Positions 26,929 through 38,556 of a stretch of 64,000 bases of DNA are shown one piece after another. The position numbers and the translations under genes are program-made. The stretch is from Luteithermobacter gelatinilyticus (GTDB lineage Bacteria > Pseudomonadota > Alphaproteobacteria > Sphingomonadales > Emcibacteraceae): assembly GCF_005849285.1 (NCBI RefSeq), contig NZ_CP040517.1, positions 2,548,501 to 2,612,500 of the forward strand, in the 5' to 3' direction. The notes under the pieces are model-generated. The model saw only the letters and a program-made list of their open reading frames with translations, was not told where the DNA came from and made no database searches. Position 1 is the first letter of the stretch; each line of letters starts with the position of its first letter.

Positions 26929-27093
26929 GTCGGTTATTTTAGCTGTATCCCGTGTGACGAAAAAATCACTTCTTTGTGAAACCGTTTCCCGAAATAAGTG
27001 GCAAACATTTCTGGCGTGACCCGCAAGGGTGTTGTACAATTATCCCCTGCACAGACCGTGTTTATTAACCCATATAAGCGATCTGGAGTTTCT

Positions 27094-27699
27094 TTGAAAG
27101 TGACAAGAGAAGGTTATCTGGAAGGACAGCTGCTGATTGCCATGCCGGGCATGACAGACCCCCGCTTTGCCCATAGCGTCATCTATATTTGTTCCCATAA
27201 CGAAGATGGGGCCATGGGGCTGGCCATCAATAGGCCGACACAGCATATTGATTTCCCTTCCCTTCTGGATCAGCTCGACATCGACCCTTATCAGGGCGGG
27301 AACTTTACCGAGACGACCGAGATCCCCCCCGAGATCCCCCTGCCGCAACTGCATGCCGGAGGGCCTGTAGAAGTAGGGCGAGGGTTTGTGCTGCACTCCG
27401 CCGATTATGTACAGGACAGCACTCTGGTCATTTCCGAAACCATAGCGTTGACGGCCACAGTGGATATTCTGAAAGCCATTGCCCGCGGACGGGGCCCCCG
27501 ACACTATTTGGTGATTCTGGGGTATAGTGGCTGGGGCGCAGGCCAACTTGAATATGAACTGCAACGTAACAGCTGGCTGACCACAGAAGCGGATGAGGAA
27601 CTGGTATTCTGCACCGAACCGGATATGAAATGGCCACGCGCCATGGCGAAGCTCGGGGTGGATGTCACCATGCTTTCCTCCGAAGCCGGTCACGCCTGA
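27094..27699 (+). CDS. YqgE/AlgH family protein
   Basis: A 201-residue YqgE/AlgH protein. [20 protein letters not shown], cited as [47 protein letters not shown] and [10 protein letters not shown] are conserved blocks. The biochemical role is not firmly known. The frame has no ATG upstream of the conserved start; I take TTG at 27094 because CTGGAG precedes it. It is divergent from the DsbD-like gene and ends at an intrinsic terminator. Confidence 0.9.
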
Positions 27700-27728: not shown

Positions 27729-27776
27729 GGCCTCAAGACCATGCTTTGGACCATGCTTTGAGGCCATGCATTTTTT
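27729..27776 (+). terminator. Intrinsic terminator after yqgE with a 12-bp duplication in its loop
   Basis: GGCCTCAA (27729-27736) pairs with TTGAGGCC (27758-27765), followed by ATGCATTTTTT. The loop consists almost entirely of the perfect duplication GACCATGCTTTG at 27737-27748 and 27749-27760. Confidence 0.7.
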
Positions 27777-27837
27777 GCATGGCTGCATTGAAATATTAAG
27801 ACTTCTCATCCTTGCGGAACATCCCTATATATCCCCC

Positions 27838-27998
27838 CAGATGTTGTATGCGTCTACTGACTGAAATCCTCCCTTTTTTCAGTCCGTTATGGCCTCCTTC
27901 CTCCCCTTAGAAGGTCATAACATTGTTTCATTGTCTCCTAGACATGAAGCCTCCCTATATTTTTGGACTTGCCGGGCCTCGGGCCCGGCATTTTTTTT
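27838..27998 (+). ncRNA. Candidate small RNA with three C/U-rich anti-Shine-Dalgarno loops
   Basis: About 160 bases on the plus strand fold by eye into three consecutive hairpins and a terminator. Hairpin 1: GACTGAAA and TTTCAGTC enclose TCCTCCC (27867-27873). Hairpin 2: ATGGCCT and AGGTCAT, with one G-U pair, enclose CTCCTTCCTCCCC (27895-27907 region). Hairpin 3: TTCAT-T-GTCT and AGACATGAA enclose CCT, and GCCTCCC follows at 27949-27955. The terminator is GCCGGGCC/GGCCCGGC plus eight T residues. Loops with CCUCC are the hallmark of several alphaproteobacterial sRNA families thought to pair with Shine-Dalgarno sequences or titrate RNA-binding proteins. A weak TTCTCA-17-TATATA promoter (27803-27831) fits a start near 27838. 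Both ends are predictions. Confidence 0.6.
27971..27998 (+). terminator. Strong intrinsic terminator ending the sRNA candidate
   Basis: GCCGGGCC (27971-27978), loop TCG, GGCCCGGC (27982-27989), then A and eight T residues. There is no protein gene immediately upstream, which itself argues for a non-coding transcript. Confidence 0.9.
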
Positions 27999-28183: not shown

Positions 28184-28570
28184 ATGAATCGAGTAATGAA
28201 AATGTCCCGTTTTTTTAAATCTGCCGTCGTGGCGCTCACTCTTTCCGTTTCCTTCATCATGGCCAACACGTCATTTGCCTCGGACTTCAAATCGTGGCAG
28301 ACCGAAGTCGTAAAACTCGTGGCAAAAAAGCAGGTTTACCCGCGCGCCGCCATGCGACAGGAGCTGGAAGGCAGGGCCAAAGTCAAGATCAACATTGACC
28401 GCTCCGGCGCCATCACCAGCTATGAACTTGTCGAGCCGAGCGGGGTAGAGATCTTCGACAAGGAAATCGACAGTCTGGTAGAACGTCTCAACCCGTTGCC
28501 TGCCCCGCCGGCCAGTGCCAGCGAGTCCCAGCTCAGCTTTATTCTGCCGCTCACTTGGCAAATTCAGTAA
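28184..28570 (+). CDS. Exported TonB C-terminal-like domain protein
   Basis: A 128-residue protein with a signal peptide (basic start, hydrophobic AVVALTLSVSFIMA, cleavage near TSFA-S) and a single TonB C-terminal-like domain: YPRAAMRQELEGRAKVKINIDRSGAI, cited as YPRAAMRQELEGRAKVKI. It lacks the proline-rich linker and permanent N-terminal anchor of true TonB, so it is more likely a free periplasmic domain protein. Start choice between 28184 and 28196 is open. The stop codon is in the first unit of a 15-bp duplication. Confidence 0.82.
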   Translation: MNRVMKMSRFFKSAVVALTLSVSFIMANTSFASDFKSWQTEVVKLVAKKQVYPRAAMRQELEGRAKVKINIDRSGAITSYELVEPSGVEIFDKEIDSLVERLNPLPAPPASASESQLSFILPLTWQIQ

Positions 28571-37071: not shown

Positions 37072-37084
37072 GGAGAGGCTGATT

Positions 37085-37347
37085 AGACCTGCGGGAGAGA
37101 CTGAACATGTTTCAGCGCCGAAGGAGCAACCGCCCCGGAAACTCTCAGGCAAAAGGACCGCATGGATAAAGCACTCTGGAAAGCAGAGAGTTCGATCGGA
37201 CCCAGACGACAAAAATGTTCAGGGTATCTGAAGCTCTCTCACCGACGGGGTAAATCAGAGTTCCGTTGAGGCCGCCCTTAAATTGACTTGGACAGCGCGC
37301 CCAGGAAGACTGATCAAATCTCTCAGGTTCCATGACAGAGGGGGCAA
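37085..37347 (+). promoter_or_regulatory. Tandem glycine riboswitch
   Basis: The first aptamer shows the conserved blocks GCGGGAGAG (37091-37099), CGCCGAAGGAGCAA and GGAAACTCTCAGGCAAAAGGACCG, cited as GAAACTCTCAGGCAAAAGG. A second aptamer follows, with ACTCTGGAAAGCAGAG near 37173, CACCGACGGGGTAAA near 37240 and AATCTCTCAGGTTCCATGACAGAGG near 37317, cited as TCTCTCAGGTTCCATGACAG. Its P3 arm appears enlarged by several tens of bases. Riboswitches of this class bind glycine and usually switch on gcv operons; the glycine cleavage genes follow directly. Confidence 0.93.
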
Positions 37348-37395: not shown

Positions 37396-37422
37396 CCGGA
37401 ACACCCCTTATTGGAGAATTTT

Positions 37423-38556
37423 ATGAGTGCTGATCAGACAGATCTGAAAAAAACCCCGCTATTTTCCCTGCATGAAGAACTGGGGGCAAAAATGGTGCCT
37501 TTCGCCGGTTATGCCATGCCGGTGCAATATCCGTTGGGTGTGATGAAGGAACATTTGCACACCCGCGCCGCCGCCGGGCTGTTCGATGTCTCTCATATGG
37601 GACAGGTGGTGATCCGTGGCGAGAATGCCGACGCCTGGATGGAAACGCTGGTGCCTGGCAATATCACGGCCCTGAAACCCGGCCGGCTGCGTTATACCCA
37701 GTTCACCAATGATGAGGGCGGCATTCTGGACGACCTGATGGTCACCAAACGGGAAGATGACCTGTTCCTGGTGGTCAATGCCGCCTGCAAGGAACAGGAT
37801 ATTGCTCATCTCAAGGCCCATTTGCCAAAGGGGTTCACCCTGACCGAACTTGACGACCGGGCGCTGGTGGCGCTGCAGGGCCCCAAAGCAGCCGAGGTCA
37901 TGGCGCGCTTTGTCCCCGATGCCGCCGACATGCCGTTTATGTCCTATATGGAAAAAGACATTGAATCCGTGCCCTGTTATATCAGCCGCTGCGGCTATAC
38001 CGGCGAAGACGGGTTTGAGATTTCCATACCGGCGGATCAGGCGGAAATGCTGTGCCGCCGCTTACTAGCAGAACCAGAAGTGGAAGCCATCGGCCTTGGC
38101 GCGCGCGACAGCCTGCGCCTTGAATCCGGCTTGTGCCTGTATGGTCATGACATCACCACCGACACCACCCCGGTAGAGGCCGATCTGGTGTTTTCCATTG
38201 CCAAACGCCACAAGGATCAAACCGGCGATGAAGGCGGTTTCCCCGGCGATCACATTATTCTGGAACAATTGCGCACCGGCCGCATCGCGCGCAAGAGGGT
38301 TGGTATTCTGCCCGAAGGCCGGGCCCCCGCCCGCGAAGGCACCGAAATTCTCAACGACCACGATGAAGTGATCGGCCATATCACCAGCGGCGGCTTCGGC
38401 CCGACGCTGGGCGGCCCTGTGGCCATGGGCTATGTGAAGGCGGACTACGCCACCAGCGGCCAGCCGGTTTTCCTTCTGGTACGCGGTAAGAAACTGCCGG
38501 CCCACGTGGCCGACATGCCATTCGTGGAACAACGTTATTACAGAAAGCCCAAATAA
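37423..38556 (+). CDS. gcvT: Glycine cleavage system aminomethyltransferase (T protein)
   Basis: A 377-residue T protein that releases ammonia from the aminomethyl-lipoyl H protein and forms methylene-tetrahydrofolate. FDVSHMGQVVIRG near the N-terminus, RCGYTGEDGFEIS and GLGARDSLRLESGLCLYGHD, cited as LGARDSLRLESGLCLYG, are characteristic. ATG at 37423 has GGAG six bases upstream; a TTG at 37411 is not needed. It is the first gene of gcvT-gcvH-gcvPA-gcvPB. Confidence 0.96.
   Translation: MSADQTDLKKTPLFSLHEELGAKMVPFAGYAMPVQYPLGVMKEHLHTRAAAGLFDVSHMGQVVIRGENADAWMETLVPGNITALKPGRLRYTQFTNDEGGILDDLMVTKREDDLFLVVNAACKEQDIAHLKAHLPKGFTLTELDDRALVALQGPKAAEVMARFVPDAADMPFMSYMEKDIESVPCYISRCGYTGEDGFEISIPADQAEMLCRRLLAEPEVEAIGLGARDSLRLESGLCLYGHDITTDTTPVEADLVFSIAKRHKDQTGDEGGFPGDHIILEQLRTGRIARKRVGILPEGRAPAREGTEILNDHDEVIGHITSGGFGPTLGGPVAMGYVKADYATSGQPVFLLVRGKKLPAHVADMPFVEQRYYRKPK

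Follow-up and report, generated by a model that had tools for sequence, protein, structure and literature searches.

The window analysed here is a stretch of 64,000 nucleotides from Luteithermobacter gelatinilyticus. Between yqgE and a gene for a small TonB-like protein, it contains an element of about 160 bases which had been predicted, in just this place, to encode a trans-acting small RNA with anti-Shine-Dalgarno (aSD) words in its loops. This raises three questions: is there an RNA gene at the site, how would it be controlled and act, and does it belong to a known family? The site is very probably the gene of a small regulatory RNA, with exposed CCUCC words able to block ribosome-binding sites.

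The probable RNA gene and its fold

The predicted RNA has a length of about 160 bases and folds into five hairpins, counting the terminator (Table 1). Its minimum free energy is −57 kcal/mol, versus −32.4 ± 3.4 kcal/mol in 200 shuffled sequences (z −7.16), none of which is as good. The minus strand of the site gives a z of −3.33, and 1 of 200 shuffles is as good. Each of the three forward frames of the RNA contains at least one stop codon. Chance hairpins were considered and are ruled out by the shuffle test together with the covariation described below.

The original prediction described three hairpins with TCCTCCC, UUCCUCCCC and CTCCT in their loops, which are present as H2, H3 and H4. It also placed a fourth aSD word in the linker, where CCTCC indeed occurs at 27950, and a strong terminator at the end: the stem of nine pairs (27970-27990, G-C in eight of the nine) is followed by eight T. 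Its inventory of hairpins was incomplete, H1 and the promoter-like elements having been missed, and its statement that no protein gene lies upstream is wrong, since yqgE precedes the site on the same strand. It could not have shown the LsrB/VtlR-type box for what it is, nor the regulator gene that accompanies the second copy, nor relatives of the RNA in other families.

Table 1. Features of the small RNA locus and of its surroundings (coordinates of the window)
Feature	Position	Strand	Basis or remark
yqgE (DUF179/AlgH-like), upstream neighbour	26998-27699	+	ends 139 bases before H1
TGCA-N6-GCAT, predicted LsrB-type operator	27767-27780	+	sequence; about −71 to −58 from the inferred start
GCAT-N3-TG-N3-T, predicted VtlR/LsrB box	27777-27789	+	sequence; about −61 to −49 from the inferred start
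CTTCTC, possible −35 element	27802-27807	+	17 bases from the −10 element; 4 of 6 bases as in the CTTGAC of CTTGAC-N17-CTATAT
CTATAT, −10 element	27825-27830	+	sequence
Small RNA gene	27839-27997	+	fold (z −7.16), match to model R2, covariation over 43 copies
Hairpin H1	27839-27855	+	fold; covariation helix 1, 95.5% of cells paired
Hairpin H2, UCCUCCC in the loop	27859-27884	+	fold; helix 2, both-side changes in 7 of 7 pairs, 96.9% paired
Hairpin H3, UUCCUCCCC in the loop region	27886-27921	+	fold; helix 3, both-side changes in 10 of 10 pairs, 95.6% paired
Hairpin H4, CUCCU loop region	27925-27950	+	fold; helix 4, both-side changes in 1 of 11 pairs, 97.2% paired
Linker GCCUCCCUAUAUUUUU with a further aSD word	27948-27963	+	CTCCC/CCTCC in 42 of 43 copies; core common to other families
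Intrinsic terminator, 9-pair stem and eight T	27970-27998	+	helix 5, both-side changes in 7 of 9 pairs
Small TonB C-terminal-like protein, downstream neighbour	28184-28570	+	open reading frame and protein scan

Conservation and covariation

Of 60 genomes searched at the DNA level, 32 contain the element, the window's own among them. It is present in 27 of the 31 other genomes of the same family, the four misses being genomes that are 53-67% complete, and in 4 of 28 genomes from other families of the order. The copies of three relatives (G001, G003 and G004) are arranged in tandem.

A covariance model, R2, was built from 11 relatives, the window being excluded, with a structure mapped by hand. 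It took over from an earlier model, R1, which had lost hairpin H2 and was dropped. R2 matches the window RNA with 105.3 bits (E 1.3e-31). From the family and the order of the window, 43 copies from 40 loci were aligned to R2 (alignment A5), and the 11 copies used for the model are among them. A5 omits L010, L033, L034 and L045-L069, which nearly duplicate other loci or lie at the same positions, and L044, which consists of the terminator only.

In the 43 copies, 96.8% of the 1873 pair cells hold standard pairs, versus 36-46% when the partners are slid by 1-3 columns. Changes on both sides occur in 29 of 45 pairs (18.1 in shuffles) and in 253 cells (68 in shuffles). None of the five covariation measures is reached by any of 500 shuffles, with the caveat that relatedness alone can raise some of these measures. 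Every pair of H2 and H3 covaries; H4 is nearly invariant.

Because A5 was fitted to R2, its pair counts lean toward the structure of the model. An unfitted alignment, A1, recovers H3, H4 and the terminator, with both-side changes in 14 of 28 pairs, and does not recover H1 and H2. Left out of A1 are L030, L042 and L010, the last being a near copy of L009 that contains N, and L041 is included incompletely; A2 and A3 are selections of 22 and 11 rows. Single-sequence folds of 41 copies have a similar layout, as judged by eye.

Anti-Shine-Dalgarno words

CCTCC is found at 27868, 27893, 27900 and 27950 and CTCCT at 27935, so that the aSD words fall in H2, H3, H4 and the linker. When both strands of the window are cut into slices of 161 bases with a step of 10, four or more CCTCC occur in only 7 of the 12,768 slices, every one of which overlaps the site.

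Among the 43 copies, CCTCC or CTCCC is present in the H2 loop in 24, in the H3 loop in 39, in the H4 region in 32 and in the linker in 42; it is thus absent from the H2 loop in 19. Three or four of the four places carry such a word in 38 copies, and two places in the five others. The stems therefore vary with compensation while most of the aSD words are retained. This is the opposite of unconserved stems and drifting loops, the outcome that had been named in advance as contrary to the prediction, and it agrees with the reading of the site as an aSD small RNA.

What such words could pair with was looked for among the larger, non-overlapping open reading frames of the window. GGAG, GAGG or AGGA stands upstream of one of the first three starts in 25 of 48. 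The longer GGAGG is found upstream of only 3 of 48, which counts against the explanation preferred below.

The predicted promoter region

The −10 element CTATAT would place the start of the RNA near 27838. CTTGAC-N17-CTATAT is quoted as an alphaproteobacterial promoter (PMC8844928), and a generic sigma-70 scan did not pick up the candidate promoter of the site. Further upstream, TGCATTTTTTGCATGGCTGCATT (27767-27789), 5' of H1, holds both published forms of the LsrB box. The LsrB box of NfeR1 is reported as TGCA-N6-GCAT at −72 to −60 (PMC10746234), and the consensus of the VtlR/LsrB box as GCAT-N3-TG-N3-T (PMC7486931), which in the case of abcR1 was placed at −61 to −49 (PMC8844928).

These motifs recur upstream of the other copies. 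The exact TGCA-N6-GCAT is present in 21 of 43 (shuffle maximum 1) and YATGC-N3..8-GCAT in 37, between −75 and −72 relative to H1 (at most 1 in shuffles). GCAT-N3-TG-N3-T is found in 28 copies and GCAT-NN-C[TA]G in 39, the latter at a position which is constant within a few bases; the shuffle maximum is 2 for each. C[CT]?TATA precedes 35 copies, nearly always between −16 and −13 relative to H1 (in shuffles, 9.6 copies on average and 19 at most). Inspection by eye shows a degenerate box in L019 and L030; only the second tandem copy of G001 has none.

A scan of the own genome for TGCA-N6-GCAT-NN-CTG returns four sites, two of which are the promoters of the two sRNA copies of this genome; the remaining two lie inside open frames of at least 154 codons.

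The tandem copy of G001 that has no LsrB-type box (L032:2706-2860) also has no CCTCCC word in H2. It recalls the split of AbcR1 and AbcR2 between LsrB and RpoH1 that has been reported (PMC8844928).

The second copy and the LsrB-type regulator

The genome of the window (3.15 Mb in one contig, 99.3% complete) contains a second copy of the element, at C1:2121804-2121932, which is 78% identical and folds alike; yqgE is absent there. Upstream of it lies a LysR-type gene (C1:2119721-2120602), and the RNA core begins 1259 bases past the gene match. In this region (C1:2119721-2121932), an insertion sequence appears, by eye, to separate the gene from the second copy.

Compared with the PDB, the LysR-type protein has 9HH1 as its best match (2.1e-80 over residues 1-290; the next structure has 4e-34). 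9HH1 is the LsrB of A. tumefaciens (PMC11975290). Judged from this similarity, the genome encodes an LsrB-type regulator. Hfq is encoded too (109 bits).

Among the loci listed, the usual order in relatives, read by eye, is trxB, the LysR gene, the sRNA and a convergent HAD-type gene. In the own genome, a peroxiredoxin gene takes the position of trxB. Over the 30 best-scoring loci of the class, trxB adjoins the LsrB-type gene in 26 (one of them partial); it does not do so in the own genome. In A. tumefaciens, trxB-vtlR is reported to be followed by abcR1 and abcR2 (PMC7486931). The sRNA at the LsrB-type locus therefore takes the place of AbcR.

The LsrB of A. tumefaciens has four cysteines, one of which, C273, is reported as needed (PMC11975290). 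The LsrB-type protein of the own genome has none, so that thiol sensing as in the Agrobacterium protein is not to be assumed. Of 74 different LsrB-type proteins that a start motif picked out of the loci, 53 are free of cysteine: 26 of 31 in the order of the window (own protein included) and 27 of 43 from other loci. This raises the question of which signal is sensed by an LsrB protein without cysteines.

LsrB-linked RNAs in the Alphaproteobacteria

The LsrB/VtlR studies consulted concern Rhizobiales, and LsrB has been called unique to this order (PMC11975290). This is not borne out by gene counts, since sequence matches at E 1e-40 or better indicate an LsrB-type gene in 83 of 142 genomes of the class. 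In many of them, ACGTCTCCCAGACGTGAAGCCTCCCTGTT or a close variant of it is found 3' of this gene, with a terminator after it. In 28 loci parsed by script, a YATGC-N4..8-GCAT-R box lies between the gene and the RNA in 20 (shuffle maximum 1), and a piece of the GATGTTGC...GCAGCATC hairpin is present in 12.

The 3' core of the RNA was described by a profile of 74 positions, R3, which has no base pairs and was used as a sequence profile only. R3 matches 65 of the 142 class genomes, and in 48 of these a match is located 3' of the LsrB-type gene, both having the same orientation. The distance from gene to core is 153-532 bases in 47 genomes and 1259 in the own genome. The core is unlinked in the 17 other genomes, 6 of which have no match to the gene, and 24 class genomes have an LsrB-type gene without a core. 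R3 was trained on 25 of these genomes and on ten copies from the order of the window. As it was thus trained partly on loci beside LsrB-type genes, the linkage was also counted without the training genomes: 39 core genomes remain, 33 of them with an LsrB-type gene, and the two are linked in 25. In a sample of 200 genomes of the phylum, whose share from other classes is not given, R3 matches 15, all from the same class (own genome included).

Model R2, which is built from the family of the window only, matches 23 of 24 class loci with 12.2-71.6 bits, six of them above 45. Four of the 23 matches (19.5 bits or less) say little, because chance-like matches reach 18.2 bits.

At L118 (G179), several C-rich words in apparent hairpins are seen by eye 3' of the LsrB-type gene and the conserved 3' core is absent. 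This is possibly an LsrB-linked sRNA that was replaced or has diverged.

Proposed mechanism and alternatives

The best explanation, which can be considered probable, is that the site encodes a stand-alone, trans-acting sRNA which is activated by LsrB/VtlR and blocks Shine-Dalgarno sequences with its CCUCC words. Computation shows the structure with its compensatory changes, the aSD words, a box at constant distance, an encoded Hfq and, close to the paralogue, the regulator gene. The LysR regulator of the LsrB/VtlR type, whose gene precedes the second copy, would bind the box near −60 and, once bound, activate a sigma-70-type promoter. An RNA of about 160 bases would be made, with its 3' end at the terminator. 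The loops of H2, H3 and H4, and the linker as well, would offer CCUCC/CUCCC-type words that pair with the Shine-Dalgarno sequences of several mRNAs, and the pairing would block translation, Hfq probably taking part. The repeated words may give redundancy and several sets of targets, as reported for NfeR1 and AbcR. We infer transcription, binding of the regulator, pairing, the targets and the sensed signal; transcription, direct control by LsrB and common descent with AbcR, NfeR1 and SorX are the least certain steps.

This scheme follows what is reported in Sinorhizobium meliloti, where LsrB activates NfeR1 and AbcR1, and where NfeR1 and AbcR1/2 repress translation through aSD words that pair with translation start regions (PMC10746234, PMC8844928). 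By analogy, aSD repression would be the simplest action of the window RNA as well. The published accounts of AbcR in S. meliloti differ: the loss of lsrB had no effect in PMC7486931, and an effect on AbcR1 is described in PMC8844928.

Alternatively, the element could be the 3' UTR of yqgE with its terminator, from which RNase E would process an sRNA, as SorX is processed from ompR-1. The end of yqgE is 139 bases 5' of H1 on the same strand, yqgE also stands upstream of the copies in L003, L006, L014 and L041 (by eye), and, of the Rfam models, that of SorX, described as a 3' UTR sRNA (PMC8625941), comes nearest to the 3' half of the window RNA. This origin is nevertheless improbable, for the box and the −10 element keep a fixed distance to H1 in both settings, including the copies after an lsrB-type gene, and the paralogue folds alike without yqgE.

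It is just as improbable that the RNA acts mainly as a sponge or mimic, whose CCUCC loops would titrate another sRNA, a G-rich RNA or Hfq instead of blocking mRNAs. The Caulobacter sRNA CrfA is reported to use a G/A-rich loop to pair with ar8 RNAs at their CCUCC core (PMC12559287); aSD sRNAs therefore take part in sRNA-sRNA pairing, and the genome of the window does encode an ar8-type RNA (61.3 bits). On the other hand, CCUCC is complementary to Shine-Dalgarno sequences and not to ar8, which bears the same word, and the published aSD sRNAs NfeR1 and AbcR are described as acting on mRNAs (PMC10746234, PMC8844928).

That the element is a cis-acting leader or attenuator of the TonB-like gene is highly improbable: this gene does follow on the same strand (at 28184), and a similar one follows the copies in L003 and L006 (by eye), but the terminator ends 185 bases before it, many copies at lsrB-type loci precede the convergent HAD-type gene, and L014 has another gene downstream.

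In many alphaproteobacterial families, an LsrB-type gene, mostly beside trxB, has an RNA core of the aSD type 3' of it, and a matching box precedes this core. The synteny itself is not new, because the conservation across Alphaproteobacteria of the trxB-vtlR order (PMC7486931) and of the abcR1 region (PMC8844928) is already stated in print. A tentative and rather doubtful extension of the trans-acting reading is that LsrB and an adjacent sRNA with several aSD words have long formed a regulatory pair in the Alphaproteobacteria. The window RNA would then make up one family, absent from Rfam 15, with the LsrB-linked RNAs of many other families of organisms, and the rhizobial AbcR and NfeR1 and the rhodobacterial SorX would be its derived, relocated or streamlined branches. 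If the LsrB-linked pattern in these many families is read correctly, the circuit from LsrB to an aSD sRNA would be general to the class, a joint explanation of AbcR, NfeR1 and SorX may become possible, and the missing family can be added to Rfam.

Comparison with known RNA families

At the gathering scores of Rfam, nothing matches at the site or in twenty loci with an LsrB-type gene. The sole match in the window is a glycine riboswitch at 37082-37170 (+, 70.8 bits), an ordinary one upstream of an open frame (37411-38556) that looks by eye like gcvT. With a relaxed threshold, the best scores on ten LsrB-linked loci are 44.1 bits for SorX, 35.3 for mmgR and 35 for SorY; a few other models match here and there, and none exceeds its cut-off. 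Membership of the window RNA in SorX, ar14, ar15 or ar8, as Rfam models them, was thus rejected, the cut-offs being reached in no case, and the suggestion that it may be a divergent member or a new family is in line with these scores.

The nearest Rfam model is SorX (RF02784) of Rhodobacter, with 34.1 bits (E 1.8e-6) for a cut-off of 46.6. Both RNAs have a hairpin, CCUCCCU and a G+C-rich terminator, but the 73 positions of the SorX model cover only 27926-27996 of the window RNA, without H1 to H3. SorX is reported to derive from the 3' UTR of ompR-1 (PMC8625941), whereas the gene upstream of the window RNA is yqgE (DUF179). At E 1e-3 the SorX model matches 44 of the 142 class genomes, one of them over the cut-off.

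G080 has two neighbouring SorX RNAs over the cut-off (C3:381885-382107) and a further SorX-like RNA just 3' of its LsrB-type gene (C1:1723557-1723644). This points to SorX as a paralogue of the LsrB-linked RNA.

The model of mmgR/suhB/SisA (ar8, RF00519) scores 29.8 bits at the site, below its cut-off of 41; a weak hairpin, a single-stranded CCUCCCU and a terminator are shared with the window RNA. A separate RNA of the mmgR (ar8) type, elsewhere in the own genome, is the one that passes this cut-off.

The Cuckoo/CcsR RNAs (CIN1 locus) have CCUCC-type loops, as does the window RNA. CcsR RNAs are reported to share a transcript with a DUF1127 gene, made from an RpoH-type promoter, and to be cut by RNase E (PMC10253847). 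The site in the window differs, as one RNA with its own predicted box, and DUF1127 is absent among the six neighbouring proteins that were scanned.

For ar14/NfeR1 (RF02344) the score at the site is 17.9 bits (cut-off 58.8). The model has no match in the own genome at E 1e-3 and exceeds its cut-off in none of the 142 class genomes. Of its weak matches elsewhere, the two best (L070 and L076, both in G080) were set aside as CcsR-like, because clusters of CCUCC hairpins lie beside an apparent DUF1127 gene (by eye). L070 (G080:C1:245431-245802) is an array of CCUCC hairpins with such a gene beside it, and its ar14 match is below the cut-off.

ar15/AbcR (RF02345, cut-off 40 bits) is not listed among the matches at the site up to E 10, has no match on the ten LsrB-linked loci up to E 0.5 and none in the own genome. 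It is over its cut-off in 0 of 142 and 0 of 385 class genomes, a weak absence, as the model matched nowhere in the 142.

NfeR1 of S. meliloti is described as having three hairpins, which bear CCUCCUCCC aSD motifs and whose stems have different sequences (PMC10746234), and the window RNA also has several hairpins with aSD words in their loops. Both have the TGCA-N6-GCAT box, predicted at about −71 to −58 in the window and reported at −72 to −60 for NfeR1. They differ in length, NfeR1 having 115 bases (PMC8844928) and the window RNA about 160, and in the aSD word, which is CCUCCUCCC in NfeR1 and UCCUCCC in the window RNA.

AbcR of rhizobia carries its aSD motif in the loop of the 5' hairpin, and AbcR1 and AbcR2 form a tandem pair (PMC7486931, PMC8844928). 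Three traits recall it: the own paralogue 3' of the lsrB-type gene, the GCAT-N3-TG-N3-T box at about the position reported for abcR1 and the tandem copies of three relatives. The window RNA differs by its five hairpins, with the terminator, and its aSD words in up to four places. As for the trxB-lsrB neighbourhood typical of AbcR, the window copy lies at yqgE and the own paralogue is 3' of the lsrB-type gene, after the peroxiredoxin gene; in relatives, trxB, the lsrB-type gene and the RNA are adjacent (by eye, among the loci listed).

The strings of the RNA core occur in no main text of the open-licence papers searched, and no report of an LsrB-linked sRNA outside Rhizobiales was found in the consulted parts of this literature. 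The window RNA appears to be part of a broad group of LsrB-linked sRNAs which Rfam does not hold. By analogy, it would work like AbcR and NfeR1, yet it is not a member of either family as Rfam models them. The type of molecule is known, and the case for this variant of it being new is well supported.
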